From: Luteitalea sp. TBR-22
GTDB lineage: Bacteria > Acidobacteriota > Vicinamibacteria > Vicinamibacterales > Vicinamibacteraceae
Length of the DNA stretch: 64,000 bases
NCBI RefSeq assembly: GCF_016865485.1
Contig: NZ_AP024452.1
Location: 3,060,501 to 3,124,500 of the forward strand
Direction of reading: 5' to 3'
Of the stretch, positions 8,616 through 24,410 are shown one piece after another. How positions within the stretch are numbered: position 1 is the stretch's first letter; every line of letters starts with the position of its first letter. Under the pieces are notes generated by a model. That model worked only from the letters and a program-made list of their open reading frames with translations, had not been told where the DNA came from and made no database searches. The translations under genes were made by a program, and so were the position numbers.

Positions 8616-9722
8616 ATGCAACGCGCTGGCCTCGCCATTCCCAAGTACCAGGTGGTCTTCGAGGCCCTGCGGCGCGACATCGAGAGCGGACGACTGCCAG
8701 CGGGCGGGCGGGTTCCCAGCGAGGCCGAGCTGGTCGAGCGGTTCGGTGCCTCGCGCATCACGGTGGGGCGGGCCGTGCGCGACCTGCAGTTGCAGGGACT
8801 CGTGGAGCGGCGCGTCGGGGCGGGCACGTTCGTGCGGCGGCCTCCGGCGACGGCTGCCGTCGATTGCACGTTCGGCGTGCTGGTGCCCGACTTGCCCGAC
8901 ATCGAGATCTTCGAGCCGCTGGTGCAGGGGTTGCTCGCCGCGCCCGAATCGCGCGGCCACGCATTCCTCTGGGGCGGCGGCGAGGCGGCCCCCCACGACC
9001 GGGCCTCGGCCGCCTGGGGGCGGGTGCAGCAATACATCAACCGGCGCGTCGACGGCGTGTTCTTCGCGCCGATGGAGGGCCTGGCCGACGACGACGTGAA
9101 CGTCCGGATCGTGCAGGCACTCGACGCGGCGGGCATCCCGCTCGTGCTCCTCGACCGTTCCGCGTACCCGTATCCGAAGCGCGGTCCGTACGATCTGGTG
9201 GGCATCGACAACCGGCGCGTCGGGTATGCCGTGACCGAGCACCTGCTGCGGGCCGGGGCCAGGCGCGTCGCCTTCCTCGGCGGGGAGACGGGCGTCTCCA
9301 CCATCGATGGGCGGCGCGCCGGCTATCGCGAGGCGCTCGACGCGCTCGACGCCGACGCCTCGCTCGCACGACGACCGCTGCCCGCGCCCGGGGACCGTGA
9401 CGCGGTGAGGGCGTATCTCGAGTCGCACCGTCCGGACGCGATCGTCTGCGCGCACGATCGCGGGGCCGCGCAACTGATGCACACGTTGCTGGCCCTCGGT
9501 TGCTCGATCCCGGGCGACATCCGGCTGGCGGGGGTGGACGACGTGGAGTACGCGGCGTGGCTGCCGGTGCCGCTCACCACGGTGCGGCAGCCGGTCCGGC
9601 AGATCGGGGAAGCGGCGATTGCCGCGATGCTGGAGCGCCGGGCGCACCCCGAACGGCCCGCCCGCGACATCTTCGTGCAGTGCACGCTGGTGGTGCGCAC
9701 GTCCTGCGGCGCGATCGCGTGA
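8616..9722 (+). CDS. GntR-family regulator with LacI-type ligand-binding domain (AraR-like architecture)
   Basis: A 368-residue chimeric transcription factor. Residues 1-75 form a GntR winged helix (YQVVFEALRRDIESG, GRVPSEAELVERFG, SRITVGRAVRDL, QGLVERRVGAGTFV). From about residue 85 to the end there is a periplasmic-binding-protein-like sugar-sensor domain of LacI type (FGVLVPDL, LLDRSAYP, VGIDNRRVGYAVTEHLL, AGVDDVEYA, TTVRQPVRQIGEAA). This arrangement is that of AraR. The ligand is presumably a sugar or sugar derivative; no catabolic operon is next to it. Two palindromes lie in the divergent promoter. Only a weak GGAG is seen upstream of ATG 8616. Confidence 0.9.
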   Translation: MQRAGLAIPKYQVVFEALRRDIESGRLPAGGRVPSEAELVERFGASRITVGRAVRDLQLQGLVERRVGAGTFVRRPPATAAVDCTFGVLVPDLPDIEIFEPLVQGLLAAPESRGHAFLWGGGEAAPHDRASAAWGRVQQYINRRVDGVFFAPMEGLADDDVNVRIVQALDAAGIPLVLLDRSAYPYPKRGPYDLVGIDNRRVGYAVTEHLLRAGARRVAFLGGETGVSTIDGRRAGYREALDALDADASLARRPLPAPGDRDAVRAYLESHRPDAIVCAHDRGAAQLMHTLLALGCSIPGDIRLAGVDDVEYAAWLPVPLTTVRQPVRQIGEAAIAAMLERRAHPERPARDIFVQCTLVVRTSCGAIA

Positions 9723-9791: not shown

Positions 9792-10685
9792 CTATCGCGG
9801 CAGCAAGGCGTCGAGTTCCGCGATCTTGACCTGCCGTCCGTACTGGTTCAGCTGGAAGGCTTCCGCGTACTTCACCTTCGAGCCGCGGTCCTGCCCGTAG
9901 CGGGCGATGAGCTGCGCGCGGTACTCGTTGGCACCCGCCGCGAGCCAGCCCTTCACCGTCTCGACGATGTAGGCCTTCCGGCCCGCCTCGTCCTTCGGCA
10001 TGTTCGGGAGCGTCCGTCCCTGCCAGGAGTCGGCGTCGCCGAACTGCGAGGGCATCGCCGCGACGCACGCGAACTTCTTGTCGGCGACCGCGTCGATGTC
10101 GACCACGACGTCGGGCACGAACGTCTTCGGCACGTCGAAGCCGTCGGCGGAATTGAGGTAGATCGGGTTGCGCGGCGTCGCGGGGGTGTCCGGCACGAAG
10201 AACGGCGCCTGCACGACGATCGCGGTGTCGTTCAGGAGCACGCCGACGTTGCGGTGATCGGGGTGATAGTCGTAGGGCCGGTGGCCGATGACGATGTCGG
10301 CCTGCCACTCCCGGATCTTGCGCGCGAACTTGCGGCGCGTCTCGAGATCGGGCACCAGTTCGCCGTCGTGGATGTCGAGCACGTCGGTGGTGATGCCGAG
10401 GATCCGCGCGCACTCCTGCACCTCCCTGTAGCGCCGCTGCGCCAGCGGGCCACCGGCCTGCGAGAAGTGGCCGATGTCGCCATTGGTCGCGGCGACGAAC
10501 TTGACGCGGTGCCCCTTGGCGGCCCACATCGCCGCCACCCCCGCGGCCTGCAGCTCCGCATCGTCGGGATGCGCCCCGAAGACGATGACGTTGAGCGGAC
10601 GCTGCGCCGTGAGCGACGTTGACGAGGAAGCGAGGCCGAGGGCGAGCGCAGCGGAGGCGATGGCCGAGAACGAACGACTTCTCAT
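9792..10685 (-). CDS. Secreted PIG-L family deacetylase (copy 1)
   Basis: A 297-residue zinc-dependent LmbE/PIG-L-type hydrolase. An N-terminal signal peptide (AIASAALALGLASSS) is followed by the metal motif GAHPDDAE and, about 100 residues later, GHRPYDYHPDHR carrying the further metal ligand. The family removes acetyl groups from GlcNAc-type substrates; secretion suggests an extracellular or periplasmic glycan. The copy at 10815-11717 is similar along its whole length, so this is a tandem duplication. Both are on the minus strand with a hairpin between them. Confidence 0.88.
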   Translation of the reverse strand: MRSRSFSAIASAALALGLASSSTSLTAQRPLNVIVFGAHPDDAELQAAGVAAMWAAKGHRVKFVAATNGDIGHFSQAGGPLAQRRYREVQECARILGITTDVLDIHDGELVPDLETRRKFARKIREWQADIVIGHRPYDYHPDHRNVGVLLNDTAIVVQAPFFVPDTPATPRNPIYLNSADGFDVPKTFVPDVVVDIDAVADKKFACVAAMPSQFGDADSWQGRTLPNMPKDEAGRKAYIVETVKGWLAAGANEYRAQLIARYGQDRGSKVKYAEAFQLNQYGRQVKIAELDALLPR

Positions 10686-10710
10686 GAGAGCTCCCGGAGA
10701 GGGAAGGACT

Positions 10711-10732
10711 CCCGGCGCCGAGGGGCGCCGGG
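10711..10732. other. Hairpin between the two PIG-L copies
   Basis: CCCGGCGCC (10711-10719) pairs perfectly with GGCGCCGGG (10724-10732) around a 4-nt loop. It lies downstream of copy 2 and upstream of copy 1 in the direction of transcription, so it may reduce read-through or protect the upstream mRNA. The rest of the 129-bp gap contains a repeat-like 'GGAAGGCCGAATGA' stretch near 10780, related to one in 56370-56455. Confidence 0.4.
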
Positions 10733-10814
10733 CAAGTACACGCCGTTACGACCCGTCCGCCGTAGCCCGGAGGGCGCAGGCGGAAGGCCGAATGACCGAG
10801 GCCGCTGCGTCGTC

Positions 10815-11717
10815 CTACTTCGGGAACATGCCGTCGAGGTCGGCCGGCTTCACCTGGCGCCCGTACTGGTTCAACTGGAACGCCTCGGCGTACTTCACCT
10901 TGGAGCCGCGGTCCTGGCCGTAGCGCGCGACGAGCTGGGCGCGGTACTGGTCGGCGACGGCGGCCGAGCGCTGCTTGGCCAGTTCGAGGAGGTACGCCGG
11001 GCGCTTGACCGGATCGTCCGGCACGTCGGGCCGCGTGCGTCCCTGCCAGGAGTCCTTGTCGCCGAACTGCGAGGGCATCGCGCTGACGCACGCCCACTTC
11101 TTGTCGGCGGCGGCGTCGATGTCCACGACGACGCTCGGCTCGAACGGCTTGGGGTCGATGAAGTTGTCGGAGTAGTTCAGGTAGATGGGATTGCCTGTGG
11201 TGGCCGGCGTGTCCTGCACGAAGAAGGCCGCGCCGACGACGACCGCGGTGTCGTTGAGCAGGACGCCGACGTAGCGGTGGTCCGGGTGGTAGTCGTACGG
11301 ACGGTGGCCCATCACGATGTCGGCCTGCCACTCGCGGATCTTGCGCGCGAACATGCGGCGGTACTCCAGCGTCGGCTCGAGCTCACCGTCGTGGATGTCG
11401 AGCACGTCGGTGGTGATGCCCATGATCCGGGCACACTCCTGGACTTCCTTGTAGCGACGCTGGGCCAGTGGGCCGCCCGCCTCGCTGAAGTGCCCGATGT
11501 CGCCGTTGGTGGCGGCGACGAACTTCACCTTGTGGCCCGCGGCCGCCCAGAGCGAGGCGACGCCTGCCGCCTTCAGTTCGGCGTCGTCGGGGTGCGCGCC
11601 GAACGCGATGATGCGGAGTTGACGAGGGGCCGAGGGCTGCGTCGCCGACACGGCGACGCCGAGGGCGAGCAGGCACAGCCCGAGGGAGGGGAGGAGACGA
11701 CGAGTCATGCCGCGCAT
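10815..11717 (-). CDS. Secreted PIG-L family deacetylase (copy 2)
   Basis: A 300-residue paralogue of the gene at 9792-10685. It has a signal peptide (LLPSLGLCLLALGVAVSA), the metal motif GAHPDDAE, NGDIGHFSEAGG, and GHRPYDYHPDHR. Differences cluster in the signal peptide and in the segment corresponding to AAFFVQDTPATTGN. The C-terminal region (RYGQDRGSKVKYAEAFQLNQYGRQVK) is almost the same in both copies. Alternative starts exist at the first and fourth codons. Transcribed before copy 1; a subtelomeric-like duplication is not implied, just a local tandem one. Confidence 0.88.
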   Translation of the reverse strand: MRGMTRRLLPSLGLCLLALGVAVSATQPSAPRQLRIIAFGAHPDDAELKAAGVASLWAAAGHKVKFVAATNGDIGHFSEAGGPLAQRRYKEVQECARIMGITTDVLDIHDGELEPTLEYRRMFARKIREWQADIVMGHRPYDYHPDHRYVGVLLNDTAVVVGAAFFVQDTPATTGNPIYLNYSDNFIDPKPFEPSVVVDIDAAADKKWACVSAMPSQFGDKDSWQGRTRPDVPDDPVKRPAYLLELAKQRSAAVADQYRAQLVARYGQDRGSKVKYAEAFQLNQYGRQVKPADLDGMFPK

Positions 11718-21059: not shown

Positions 21060-21250
21060 CTGGGCGCTCCCCTGCCGGACCAAACAGCACAACGTGCGTG
21101 CGACCGGCGGGTGGCTCGCTCCTGGGGGAGAGGAGCCGGTCAGGTGTTCCCTGCAGGCCGAAACCTGCGAACGAAGTTGGGGTCCGATCAAGTCGGACAG
21201 GAATCCAACGCCTTGGATCGGAGATCCGACCGTTCGGCGACCCGCGGAAG
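21060..21250 (-). other. Structured leader of the LysM transglycosylase gene
   Basis: Several stems lie in this 190-bp stretch: GTCCGA/TCGGAC (21182-21198), GCAGG/CCTGC (21153-21168), GCTCCT/AGGAGC (21118-21136), and ACCGGC/GCCGGT (21103-21140). The last two share bases, so they cannot both form fully. I compared it by eye with ydaO (c-di-AMP) and other wall-linked riboswitches and found no match. It may be a cis-regulatory RNA or only GC-rich spacing. Confidence 0.35.
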
Positions 21251-21304
21251 GTAGCACCGCCCGGGGACCGGGGTCAAGACAACCGTATGACGGACGGACA
21301 GGAC

Positions 21305-23098
21305 TCAGGCGTCCACGAACACGTCGTTGGCGTCGCCCAGTTCCCGCGCCGCTGGAGTGACGATGGCCCGGGCGGCGAGTCGGATGCGCTGACCGGCCCG
21401 CAGGGCCTGTCGGACATCGTCCTCACAGACGAAATCGACGGCTGGCCCGACGTTCTGCACCTCGAGCGGCGCCGGCGGCAGGGGCGCTGCGGCGGCGGCC
21501 GGGTTCAGGGCTGGCGCAGACGTGGCGGCCCCACCGACGTGGCCCTCGGCGGGGCCGACGACGACCGTGGTGGCCGGCGTGATTCCGCGGCTGGCCAGGA
21601 ACCCGTCGATGCGGGCCGACAGGGCAGAGGAGTCCAGTGTGCGCACGCGCTCGGGCACGGCGGGGCGGAGGCTCGAATCGGCAGCAGCCATGGCCATCGG
21701 GCGGGCGGCCGGCGATGGGCCGGGCGCCGGACGAAGTTCGTAGGCGACCCGCTTGATGTTCAGCAGGTGCATCGGCGAGATGTTGTCGGACGTGATGTTG
21801 CCGCCGTACCCGCCGCACCCCAGCGTCATGGCCGGATCGAGGCCGGTCGTCAGGCCCACCGACCCGTGCGTGGTCGGCGTGTTCACCACGATCCGGAAGG
21901 CCGGCTTGTGCAGGCCGAACTGCAGGACGACGTCGTCGTCGGTGGCGTGGACCGACATGGTATGGCCCATCCCGCCGTAGCGCAGGATCGCCTTGCAGCG
22001 CTCGCAGCCCGCCTTCCAGTCGTCGACGACGTAGTACGACAACACGGGGCAGAGCTTCTCGATCGAAAGCGGGTAGTCGCGCCCGACGCCGTCCAGTTGG
22101 GCGATCAACGCCCTGGTCCCGGCCGGCACGGTCAGGCCGACGGCCTGGGCGATCTCCAGGGCGGTGCGACCGACGAGGGCAGGGTTGGGCAGGCGCTGCG
22201 GCGTCACCAGGACGCCCGCGAGCTTCTGGGCGTCGTCGGCCGACAGGAAGTGCCCGCCATTGGCGGCCAGGGCCGCCTTCAAGGGTTGGTCGATGGCCCT
22301 GTCGGCGACGATCGAGTTCGGCGACGAGCAGAGCAGGCCGTTGTCGAAGGTCTTGCCGAGGATGATGTCGCGCGCCGCCTTCGGCACGTCGGCGCTCTGG
22401 TGGACGTAACACGGCGCGTTGCCGGGGCCGACGCCGTAGGCCGGCTTGCCGGCCGAGTACGCGGCACGCACCAGGCCGAGGCCGCCGGTCGCCAGGATGA
22501 CGGCGACTTCACGCTGCCGCATCAGCTCCTGCGTGCCTTCGAGGGTCACCGTCTGCATCCAGCCGATGCTGTTGGCCGGGGCGCCAGCCCTGGCGGCGGC
22601 GGCCGCCATGATCTCGGCGGTGCGACTGATGCAACGGGCCGCCGACGGGTGCGGGCTCAGGACGATCGCGCAGCGGGCCTTGAGGGCGATGAGGATCTTG
22701 TACATCGCCGTCGAGGTCGGGTTGGTGGTCGGGACGATGCCGGCGACCACGCCGAACGGCTCGGCGATCTCGATGATCTTGCGAGTGTCGTCGCGGCGGA
22801 GCACCCCGACCGTCTTCATCGGCCGGATGAACTCGTACACCTGCTCGGCCACGAAGCGGTTCTTGGTGATCTTGTCTTCGTAGACGCCGAAGCCGGTCTC
22901 CTCGCGGGCCATCCGGGCCAGCGCCTCGACTTCGGAACGCACGGCCGCCGCCATGCCATCGACGATGGCGTCAATCTGGGCCTGGGACAGTTCGGCCAAC
23001 TGGGCCTGCGCGAGGCGGGCGGCGCGCGCAAGGGCGCGGGCCTCGGCGATGGAGGCCAGGTCCTTGTCTGACGGGGGCGCGGCTGAGACGTCGGCCAT
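21305..23098 (-). CDS. CoA-acylating aldehyde dehydrogenase, microcompartment type, with C-terminal extension
   Basis: 597 residues; the EutE/PduP/AdhE-N type that converts aldehyde + CoA + NAD+ to acyl-CoA. Seen: [36 protein letters not shown], and catalytic C257 in FDNGLLCSS. The usual enzyme ends near residue 455. A further 140 residues follow: an Ala/Pro-rich linker, a predicted amphipathic helix (about 487-505, [16 protein letters not shown]) like microcompartment encapsulation peptides, another linker, then a 40-residue tail with [10 protein letters not shown], resembling the N-terminal 'LTPSAREL' segment of EutT. The gene starts 21 bp after the BMC-H shell gene, so the two form an operon. 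Confidence 0.88.
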
Positions 23099-23119
23099 GC
23101 GCAGCGAGGCCGGAGGCGG

Positions 23120-23410
23120 CTACTTGACGGCCGGGGCGGCGGGCTTGGGGAGGATCCGCTCGACTTCGGCGTGGGGGCGTGGAATCACGTGCACCGAGAT
23201 CAGCTCGCCGACCCGGCGAGCCGCGGCGGCACCGGCGTCGGTGGCCGCCTTGATGGCGCCGACGTCACCGCGCGCCATCACCGTGACGTACCCCGCCCCG
23301 ATGTATTCCTTGGCGATCAGCTGCACGTTCGCGGCCTTCACCATCGCGTCGGCCGCCTCGATGGCGCCGATGAGGCCACGGGTTTCGATGAGTCCGAGGG
23401 CGTCTCCCAT
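23120..23410 (-). CDS. Bacterial microcompartment hexameric shell protein (BMC-H)
   Basis: A 96-residue single BMC domain close to PduA/EutM/Ccm[45 protein letters not shown] and [12 protein letters not shown]. Such proteins form the hexagonal facets of protein shells enclosing enzymes with volatile or toxic intermediates. The pore loop reads YIGAGY where PduA has KIGSGL, so the pore-lining serine is alanine. First gene of a two-gene unit with the aldehyde dehydrogenase. No pentamer (BMC-P), trimer, PduL or signature upstream enzyme is present in the window. Confidence 0.95.
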
Positions 23411-23531
23411 GAATTCGTGCGGACTCTAGCATGTTGCCCCTGAGGCCGCAACGGTTTACCCTAGGCTGTTTGCCGGGGGCTCCCGGACCCTGGTGATGTC
23501 CGTTCCCTTCGTTTTCGAGGAGTACCGAGGC

Positions 23532-24410
23532 GTGAAACCCTTAGCCGCCTGCGTCGTCATGGCCATGGCCCTCTCTGCCGTGGCCGGGTGCAAGAAGAAG
23601 GAAGACACCCAGCCGCCCGTCGCGACCGCGACGTTCTCGTCAAGCCGCGCCAAGGCGCCGCTCGGCAGCCCCCTCGACCTGACGTACCGATTCGTCGTGG
23701 CGGCCAATGCGCCCGCGTTCGACAAGGAGTACCGGGTCCTTGTCCACTTCCTGGATTCCGACGACCAGCTGATGTGGACCGACGACCACTTCCCGCCGAC
23801 CTCCACCAAGGACTGGAAGCCGGGGCAGCGGATCGAGTACGTGCGCACGATGTTCGTGCCGCAGTATCCGTACATGGGCCAGGCGACCATTCGCATCGGC
23901 CTGTACGACCCCGAGACCGGCGCGCGCCTGCCGCTGGGTGGGGAGAACGACGGCCAGCGGGCCTACAAGGCGGGCTCGCTCGAGCTGCTGCCGGCCTCCG
24001 ACAACGTCTTCGTGCAGTTCAAGGACGGCTGGCATAACGCCGAGGTCGCGGCCGAGAACGCACAGGTCGAGTGGCAGTGGACCAAGAAGACGGCCACCCT
24101 CGCGCTTCGCAACCCGCGCCGCGATGCCACCTTCTTTCTGCACTTCGACGGCCGTCCGGATCTGGTGCCCGGCCAGGTGGTGACGGTGCGCATCGGTGAC
24201 ACGGTGCTCGACACCTACAACCTGACCACCACCGAGGAGATCATCCGGCGCATCCCGGTGACGGCCGCGCAGTTCGGCGAGGCCGAGAACGTCGACGTGA
24301 CCATCGAGGTCAACCAGGCGTTCGTGCCGGCGCAGACCCCCGCCGCCAAGTCCTCAGACCCGCGCGAGCTCGGCATCCGCGTCTTCCACGCCTTCATCGA
24401 GCCGAAGTAG
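23532..24410 (+). CDS. Lipoprotein of unknown function
   Basis: 292 residues. GTG 23532 has GAGGAG 9 bp upstream and opens a signal peptide (AACVVMAMALSAVAGC) with a good lipobox; the lipidated cysteine is about residue 20, followed by KKKED, so an envelope-anchored, probably outer-membrane, lipoprotein. The mature part is beta-rich, with alternating hydrophobic segments (YRVLVHFLDSDDQLMW, ATIRIGLYDPETGARLPL, DATFFLHFDGRPDLV) resembling two Ig- or C2-like beta-sandwiches. I do not recognise a named family. Divergent from the BMC mini-locus; 122 bp between them. Confidence 0.75.
   Translation: MKPLAACVVMAMALSAVAGCKKKEDTQPPVATATFSSSRAKAPLGSPLDLTYRFVVAANAPAFDKEYRVLVHFLDSDDQLMWTDDHFPPTSTKDWKPGQRIEYVRTMFVPQYPYMGQATIRIGLYDPETGARLPLGGENDGQRAYKAGSLELLPASDNVFVQFKDGWHNAEVAAENAQVEWQWTKKTATLALRNPRRDATFFLHFDGRPDLVPGQVVTVRIGDTVLDTYNLTTTEEIIRRIPVTAAQFGEAENVDVTIEVNQAFVPAQTPAAKSSDPRELGIRVFHAFIEPK

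Follow-up and report, generated by a model that had tools for sequence, protein, structure and literature searches.

A predicted EutQ-type mini-domain at the C-terminus of a satellite aldehyde dehydrogenase as a candidate shell-docking tag in a dispersed ACI-type BMC

Introduction

The delivery of cargo enzymes to the shell is an open question of BMC biology, and EPs explain only a part of it. This question is raised by an aldehyde dehydrogenase (AldDh) gene in a stretch of 64,000 nucleotides from Luteitalea sp. TBR-22 (the window), whose product continues past its catalytic domain into a long tail. What is this tail, and what might it do?

Earlier work has described the ACI type of organelle, the EP at the C-terminus and the function of EutQ. 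The ACI type was described by Sutter et al. (2021) in Acidobacteria, with AldDh consistently encoded in a satellite locus and, in the accessible part of the article, no obvious aldehyde-producing signature enzyme named (PMC8217296). The same article reports an EP at the C-terminus of type I BMC AldDhs, and part of the novelty of the tail is explained by these two descriptions (PMC8217296). Neither an AldDh terminal domain nor RpiB/DeoC cargo is mentioned for ACI in the main text of that article, as far as it was available. Within the open-licence literature we found no earlier description of the shared module reported here, of its fusion to AldDh, or of a link between RpiB/DeoC and ACI, and a prior description is possible. 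A compact domain common to unrelated cargo enzymes, one member of which has been studied experimentally, makes the question testable, and such a mini-domain is also a possible engineering tag.

Results and discussion

The aldehyde dehydrogenase and its neighbourhood

The open reading frame at 21305-23098 of the window (minus strand) encodes a product of 597 amino acids and is preceded by a BMC-H gene.

21305..23098, minus strand, including the stop codon: predicted CoA-acylating AldDh, 597 aa, satellite enzyme of an ACI-type BMC (Aldedh and TIGR02518 matches)
21734..23098, minus strand: catalytic domain, residues 1-455 (AF2 pLDDT mostly 90-99; conservation)
22328..22330, minus strand: presumed catalytic Cys257 (invariant in alignments A2 and A3)
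23120..23410, minus strand: BMC-H shell protein, 96 aa (PF00936, 96.4 bits)

The original prediction, made from the sequence without database searches, had the catalytic domain run to about residue 455, and the family matches agree with it. Pfam Aldedh covers residues 16-279 and is the sole domain found in the protein by Pfam, the scan giving neither the EutQ cupin (PF06249) nor the cobalamin adenosyltransferase domain (PF01923). The NCBIfam model TIGR02518 covers residues 11-456 with 581.2 bits, a score below its equivalog cut-off of 620.1. This model of acetylating AldDhs is one that we take to be the same as IPR013357. The closest solved structures are the acetylating acetaldehyde dehydrogenases 5j78 and 3k9d, and the catalytic role of Cys257 is presumed from the family.

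Only 21 bases separate the AldDh gene from the BMC-H gene directly upstream, whose product scores 122.8 bits against the EutM model, below the cut-off of 133. We collected relatives in three ways. In the class, 155 of 193 genomes match the AldDh at E 1e-100, and 70 proteins were retrieved; in the phylum, 141 of 396 genomes match, and 20 proteins were retrieved; a scan of named records covered at least 80 loci. BMC-H lies directly upstream of the AldDhs that carry the terminal module described below in 57/69 cases in the class, in 16/18 in other classes of the phylum, and in 23/29 among the matches listed in the named scan. It is missing from this position in 11 of the 68 class orthologues with sufficient upstream sequence. 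A few AldDh matches (G003, G103, G106 and others) contain one in-frame stop, for example a single TAG, and are possibly assembly errors or pseudogenes. A scan of 21200-23700 for promoters and terminators found none, and none was expected to stand out. Elsewhere in the window, two adjoining open reading frames of 297 and 300 aa (9792-11717, minus strand) are very alike and seem to have arisen from one gene by tandem duplication.

Three BMC-H and three BMC-P genes lie in the genome, a single contig of 6.47 Mb. Its main BMC locus (L007), at about 829 kb, contains a class II aldolase, a BMC-H, a BMC-P triplet and a 2-hydroxyacid dehydrogenase.

L007:8938-9807: class II aldolase (PF00596, 162.5 bits)
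L007:11267-12271: hydroxyacid dehydrogenase (PF00389/PF02826)
829175-829980: BMC-P triplet, three PF03319 matches
828900: BMC-H of the main locus

The AldDh lies in a satellite locus about 2.25 Mb away. This main-locus content, including a BMC-P triplet together with at least one BMC-H, and the satellite position of AldDh are shared with the ACI type as given in the available part of PMC8217296, and the named relatives that bear the module are all Acidobacteriota among the matches listed. The enzyme is the satellite-locus aldehyde dehydrogenase, a probable cargo of a dispersed ACI-type BMC. Inspection of the translations by eye found an EP-like C-terminal end on the main-locus class II aldolase. 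An 82-aa protein of the same locus (L007:11005-11253), which has no Pfam match, combines an EP-like N-terminal helix with a C-terminal CHHCGFC motif. In the whole genome, PduL-type phosphotransacylase (PF06130) had no match, and the only match of PF06249 (EutQ) was partial (positions 90-144, 23.8 bits), in a protein better scored as a general cupin.

Layout of the tail

The tail, residues 456-597, occupies positions 21308-21733 (minus strand) and falls into four parts.

21632..21733, minus strand: linker 1, residues 456-489, Ala/Pro-rich (44% Ala+Pro; pLDDT 51-65)
21590..21631, minus strand: degenerate helix, residues 490-503, placed where type I AldDhs have their C-terminal EP (AF2 pLDDT 87/79)
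21443..21589, minus strand: linker 2, residues 504-552, disordered (43% Ala+Pro; pLDDT 34-58 over 511-550)
21308..21442, minus strand: putative terminal docking mini-domain, residues 553-597, beta-alpha-beta-alpha-beta (AF2; conservation; EutQ/EutT homology)

The original prediction foresaw a terminal segment behind two linkers with a helix between them, the first linker being rich in Ala/Pro. This order was recovered in the composition of the linkers and in the full-length AF2 model, where the linkers are mostly below pLDDT 60, residues 490-503 are a helix and residues 553-597 are folded. In the class alignment, the mean column entropy is 2.75 over residues 456-484 of linker 1 and 2.46 in linker 2, and both linkers are unconserved and of low complexity. 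The helix region, at 2.06, stands between the linkers and the terminal segment.

Since a C-terminal EP is typical of type I BMC AldDhs (PMC8217296, partial text), it could be supposed that helix 490-503 is the working encapsulation signal and that the terminal domain is accessory, for example ligand-binding or oligomer-stabilising. The helix is predicted by AF2 and has conserved positions in the class alignment (L493, R496, I497, F500, L501 and R504), with the family pattern L-x2-R-I-D-x2-F-L. However, of the amphipathic helix that had been proposed at about residues 487-505, the helix was confirmed and the amphipathicity was not. The hydrophobic moment in the window AldDh is 0.086, a value matched or exceeded in 4656 of 5000 shuffles, so that no amphipathicity is measurable, and a clear amphipathic EP is unsupported in this protein. 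The family mean of 0.215 was matched or exceeded in 2842/5000 shuffles, and none of 58 sequences placed residues 490-504 within the top 5% of its own shuffles. In addition, nine of the 69 class orthologues (L046 and L048-L055) have lost the helix and retain the terminal domain. The presence of this domain on enzymes that share neither fold nor reaction, described below, argues further against a role in AldDh chemistry. We consider it improbable that the helix does the work and the domain merely assists.

We then compared tails by choosing the best 13-residue stretch of each and scoring its hydrophobic moment, with L078 and L164 left out. The AldDhs that end in an EP only had a median moment of 0.65, and 33/52 were in the top 5% of shuffles among the matches listed, while the module-bearing AldDhs of the class had a median of 0.42, with 13/69 in the top 5%. 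We read the helix as an EP that has lost strength in proteins with the terminal domain, which is a correlation among related sequences.

Conservation and predicted fold of the terminal mini-domain

The mini-domain was found in 69 of the 70 class matches retrieved; the single match without it, L078, is a tail-less relative that is 45% identical and belongs to family f4. Six residues are invariant in 69/69 sequences (E559, D561, A565, T581, P582 and A584), and the orthologues end at the same place. The mean column entropy over residues 553-597 in the class alignment, 1.40, is about that of residues 11-60 in the catalytic domain (1.41). In other classes of the phylum, 18 of 20 AldDhs have the segment, and the remaining two, L108 and L109, finish in an EP-like helix alone. 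When residues 548-597 were modelled by AF2 on their own with a 46-row alignment, a strand-helix-strand-helix-strand fold was predicted with a mean pLDDT of 94.2 and a pTM of 0.75, and in the full-length model the mini-domain was again confident (pLDDT 93-95) behind the disordered linker. The terminal part of the tail is predicted to be ordered (pLDDT about 94).

These results bear on the simplest view of such a tail, namely that it comes from faulty annotation or is an extension under no constraint. The low-complexity and unconserved linkers would fit this view. However, the terminal columns that are invariant in 69/69 sequences, the predicted order and the shared end point speak against it, and the conservation of residues 556-594 refutes it, leaving it hardly any probability. 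The tail, which might have proved absent or unalignable in orthologues, is present in them and aligns.

On a catalytic-domain tree of 135 rows, built without L164 and without rows at 80% identity or more, the presence of the module required three label changes, while shuffled labels averaged 37.9 and none of 500 shuffles was as low. Because the distribution of the module follows descent, its entropy values and tree changes do not amount to independent observations, and the tree result shows that the module is clustered.

Residues 553-597 do not correspond to an EP, which is a lone amphipathic helix of 15-20 aa, and form instead a predicted 45-residue beta-alpha-beta-alpha-beta fold. Searches of the PDB with residues 548-597 gave no close match by sequence or by structure (best Foldseek E 0.23, best VIA Z 4.3), a result from which no new fold should be read. 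No Pfam or NCBIfam family covers the module in AldDh, and the listed matches of its other hosts likewise leave the module uncovered. The E3-binding domain of 2-oxo acid dehydrogenases was considered and dropped, the sole hint being an E of 1.2 over 18 positions.

Relatives and hosts of the mini-domain

The AldDh terminal segment, which had been likened to the N-terminal segment of EutT, does contain the ten-residue motif noted in it ([10 protein letters not shown]). The likeness to EutT is real (hhalign E 5.6e-5, probability 66%), and the restriction to EutT was too narrow, as EutQ is closer and the family is wider. In both EutQ and EutT of E. coli, the part to which the mini-domain aligns is the first 40-45 residues, and the single hhalign comparison with EutQ gave an E of 5e-5 and a probability of 67%. 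In proteome-sized searches, an HMM built from AldDh modules only found EutQ at 5.1e-4 and EutT at 0.046, and a wider profile found them at 4e-7 and 9.9e-5, respectively; the two E. coli proteins are in neither profile. By these comparisons the mini-domain shares ancestry with the N-terminus of EutQ and, with a weaker signal, with that of EutT. EutT was rejected as a special relative, given the better score of EutQ and the range of other hosts. EutT, a different enzyme, carries the same module as the AldDh tail at its N-terminus, with the weaker match of the wider profile.

When the AldDh profile was run against the 12,711 open reading frames of the retrieved loci, 146 matches were obtained at E 0.01, whereas reversed or shuffled copies of these 12,711 frames gave none even at E 0.05. 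Chance similarity is ruled out by these controls. A profile of 21 non-AldDh modules matched 116/116 module-bearing AldDhs and 0/54 others among the matches listed, which is a consistency test only, as the 21 modules had come from the search with the AldDh profile. The alignment of both kinds (A4) holds 24 of the 29 listed AldDh modules plus that of the window, and 21 of the 27 other modules of the first profile search; alignment A3 holds 55 of the 80 listed AldDhs plus that of the window.

Among the matches listed, 29 AldDhs have the module and all are Acidobacteriota by record name or tree placement, and 51 lack it and belong to other groups (mostly Bacillota, Ignavibacteriota and others). 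The statement that no standard PduP/EutE carries this tail is thus supported by 51/51 non-Acidobacteriota relatives among the matches listed. In common with the type I BMC AldDhs that have a C-terminal EP (EUT2 and others; PMC8217296, partial text), the window enzyme has the catalytic domain and a helix behind a linker, and it differs from them in the terminal mini-domain, found in 0/51 of these relatives. Among the matches listed, a second copy of the module was found near a module-bearing AldDh in 0/29 loci, and the module sat on another protein in 34/51 loci whose AldDh lacks it. Of the 50 non-AldDh module frames in these 34 loci, 29 have the module towards the N-terminal end and 21 towards the C-terminal end. 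Among the 50 listed, the hosts include cobalamin adenosyltransferase (15), PTAC (10), EutQ (8) and a flavoprotein (1), with double matching possible. For the remaining 17 loci with a module-less AldDh, a whole-genome profile search gave a match in 16, counted as 15 among the matches listed after the Proteus match L269, which looks like a non-genic frame and was also left out of alignment A7, had been discarded. Ten of the 15 are RpiB proteins with an N-terminal module, although the profile held no RpiB. Since its best-studied relative, in EutQ, attaches to the shell (see below), this mini-domain at one end of many unrelated BMC enzymes is probably a portable docking tag.

Some hosts are worth recording. 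The top non-AldDh match among the matches listed (54.5 bits) is a PTAC with a C-terminal module in a KSB1 genome (L136:6637-7407), in a locus whose AldDh has no module. According to Pfam, the protein at L173:6858-8138 has a PTAC part and a cobalamin adenosyltransferase-like part fused to the module, and L271:1489-2844, L277:1471-2787 and L279:304-1656 appear by resemblance to be the same three-part fusion.

A EutQ-type docking model

The EutQ N-terminus offers a precedent for the function of the module. In Salmonella, EutQ without residues 9-41 stays with the cargo, which is then parted from the shell, and EutQ without residues 62-99 stays with the shell (PMC12487888, partial text). The authors conclude that helices H1/H2 touch the shell at the EutM-EutL interface and that H3/H4 bind cargo EPs; the cargo-binding part is residues 63-99, residues 2-62 show no shifts, and attachment requires EutL besides EutM (PMC12487888). 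In an earlier study, likewise available in part, loss of EutQ residues 1-100 abolished EutM pull-down, EutM K53, D57 and Q64 were implicated, and EutM Q64K abolished EutQ binding (PMC4827028). The two studies place the contact differently, on the outer face in PMC4827028 and in the organelle interior in PMC12487888.

The AldDh tail resembles the EutQ N-terminal region (residues 1-45, H1/H2) in being a homologous terminal segment on a flexible linker of a BMC protein (PMC12487888 and PMC4827028, both in part). The two differ in that the module is N-terminal on a cupin protein in EutQ and C-terminal on an enzyme in AldDh, and that EutQ has H3/H4 for cargo EPs, while no such pair was identified in AldDh. 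The shells differ as well. The Salmonella shell includes EutL, and here no BMC-T gene was found in the genome, the only three BMC matches each being a single BMC-H gene. The exact EutM-EutL interface is therefore impossible in this organism. The window BMC-H retains the equivalents of EutM K53 and D57, and Q64 is replaced by Arg. The Arg at this position, the lack of a BMC-T gene and the 11 of 68 class orthologues with no BMC-H directly upstream weigh against shell docking by the AldDh module, the need for EutL in Salmonella being the main ground for caution.

Since residues 9-41 of EutQ lie within the homologous region and are needed for shell attachment in Salmonella, we infer that the AldDh module likewise binds the shell; the choice of shell protein and the replacement of the EP by the module are inferred in the same way. 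The last 45 residues of AldDh would be a self-folding docking mini-domain of the EutQ 1-45 family, and the long disordered linker would give it reach and present it to the inner surface of the shell, most likely to BMC-H. By tethering AldDh to the shell, the mini-domain would build into the enzyme itself the adaptor job that in ethanolamine organelles falls to EutQ as a separate protein. Helix 490-503 may be a remnant of the canonical C-terminal EP and may still help to gather cargo. We give a probability of roughly 0.6 to this reading, in which AldDh is an ACI cargo tethered to the shell by a terminal EutQ-type mini-domain and the helix is a leftover EP. A shell-targeting or partner-docking module, as first proposed for the whole tail, is the best reading on the grounds of the conserved fold and the EutQ homology, and it would apply to the terminal domain; the upstream helix is EP-like by position and family, degenerate in the window AldDh and missing in 9/69 orthologues.

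The mini-domain could instead dock onto other cargo or onto its own second copy and so build an enzyme core, which an EP helix or piggy-backing would bring to the shell. Such a core scaffold would also suit a module shared by various enzymes of a single organelle type. In the available text on Salmonella, EutQ without H1/H2 goes with the cargo and without H3/H4 with the shell, so that one N-terminus does both jobs, and the boundary between these jobs was defined by deletions (PMC12487888); EPs themselves are able to condense cargo (PMC12339742, partial text). However, cargo binding of EutQ was mapped to residues 63-99, with no shifts in 2-62, whereas the part homologous to the AldDh module is residues 1-45 (PMC12487888, in part). 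We regard core building as an unlikely but serious alternative to shell docking by the mini-domain.

A second module copy and the RpiB/DeoC pair

The mini-domain also served as a search tool and led to an RpiB beside a DeoC with an EP-like start. The wider profile gave a second, borderline module match in the genome (E 0.012) at 2.856 Mb, which forms the start of an RpiB (PF02502; G000:C1:2856095-2856736) that lies 0.2 Mb from AldDh and far from the main locus. In RpiB homologues the profile matched the N-terminus in 30/30 cases, 25 of them at E 0.01 or better, and gave no match on the RpiB catalytic parts or on 600 shuffled RpiB N-termini. At 5.84 Mb, a further RpiB-like stretch can be aligned from residue 55 onwards only. 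A DeoC aldolase gene follows 75 bases downstream of the module-bearing RpiB, and the pair is kept in 29/30 loci.

L222:8096-8740 and 8816-9703: RpiB with N-terminal module, and DeoC with EP-like start

By eye, the DeoC N-terminus resembles a canonical EP and is followed by a Cys-rich motif. Such a motif occurs both here, after the EP-like DeoC start, and in the 82-aa protein of the main locus.

DeoC and RpiB are shared enzymes of SPU organelles, where DeoC gives acetaldehyde for AldDh (PMC8217296, partial text). The genome studied here has in common with that BMC type the DeoC/RpiB pair and acetaldehyde as the probable AldDh substrate, as far as the available text describes it (PMC8217296), and it differs in that the pair is distant from all shell genes and that the module sits on RpiB. 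Because DeoC of SPU organelles yields acetaldehyde for AldDh, we propose that the ACI organelle takes in deoxyribose-5-phosphate; the comparison suggests that this compound would be degraded here with the products of dispersed genes. RpiB and DeoC are possible signature enzymes of the ACI organelle, and they offer a substrate for an organelle type reported without an obvious one in the accessible text of PMC8217296. In support of this proposal, AldDh was present in 71/73 genomes with a long RpiB and in 16/23 without it (Fisher p 5e-4, uncorrected for kinship, in a table of 96 of 119 genomes with the 23 matchless genomes left out). Against the deoxyribose-phosphate reading, family f15 has AldDh and no RpiB match at E 1e-30, and the main-locus aldolase suggests a different sugar.

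Taken at its widest, the module would be a portable folded cargo signal beside EPs in at least six families (AldDh, EutQ, EutT, PTAC, flavoprotein and RpiB), would mark shell-distant cargo, and would show that ACI is a dispersed deoxyribose-phosphate metabolosome for nucleic-acid scavenging. We hold this generalization to be about evenly balanced between right and wrong.

Finally, the third BMC-H gene of the genome (L008:9832-10218, at about 6.121 Mb of G000:C1) lies 46 bases behind a gene for a PLP enzyme of the D-threonine aldolase/D-hydroxyaspartate dehydratase family (L008:8664-9785). Some genomes (G045, G083 and G111) have the PLP enzyme and no AldDh match at 1e-100. In the loci retrieved from the order, a BMC-H adjoins a PLP enzyme of this family in 28 of 30 cases.
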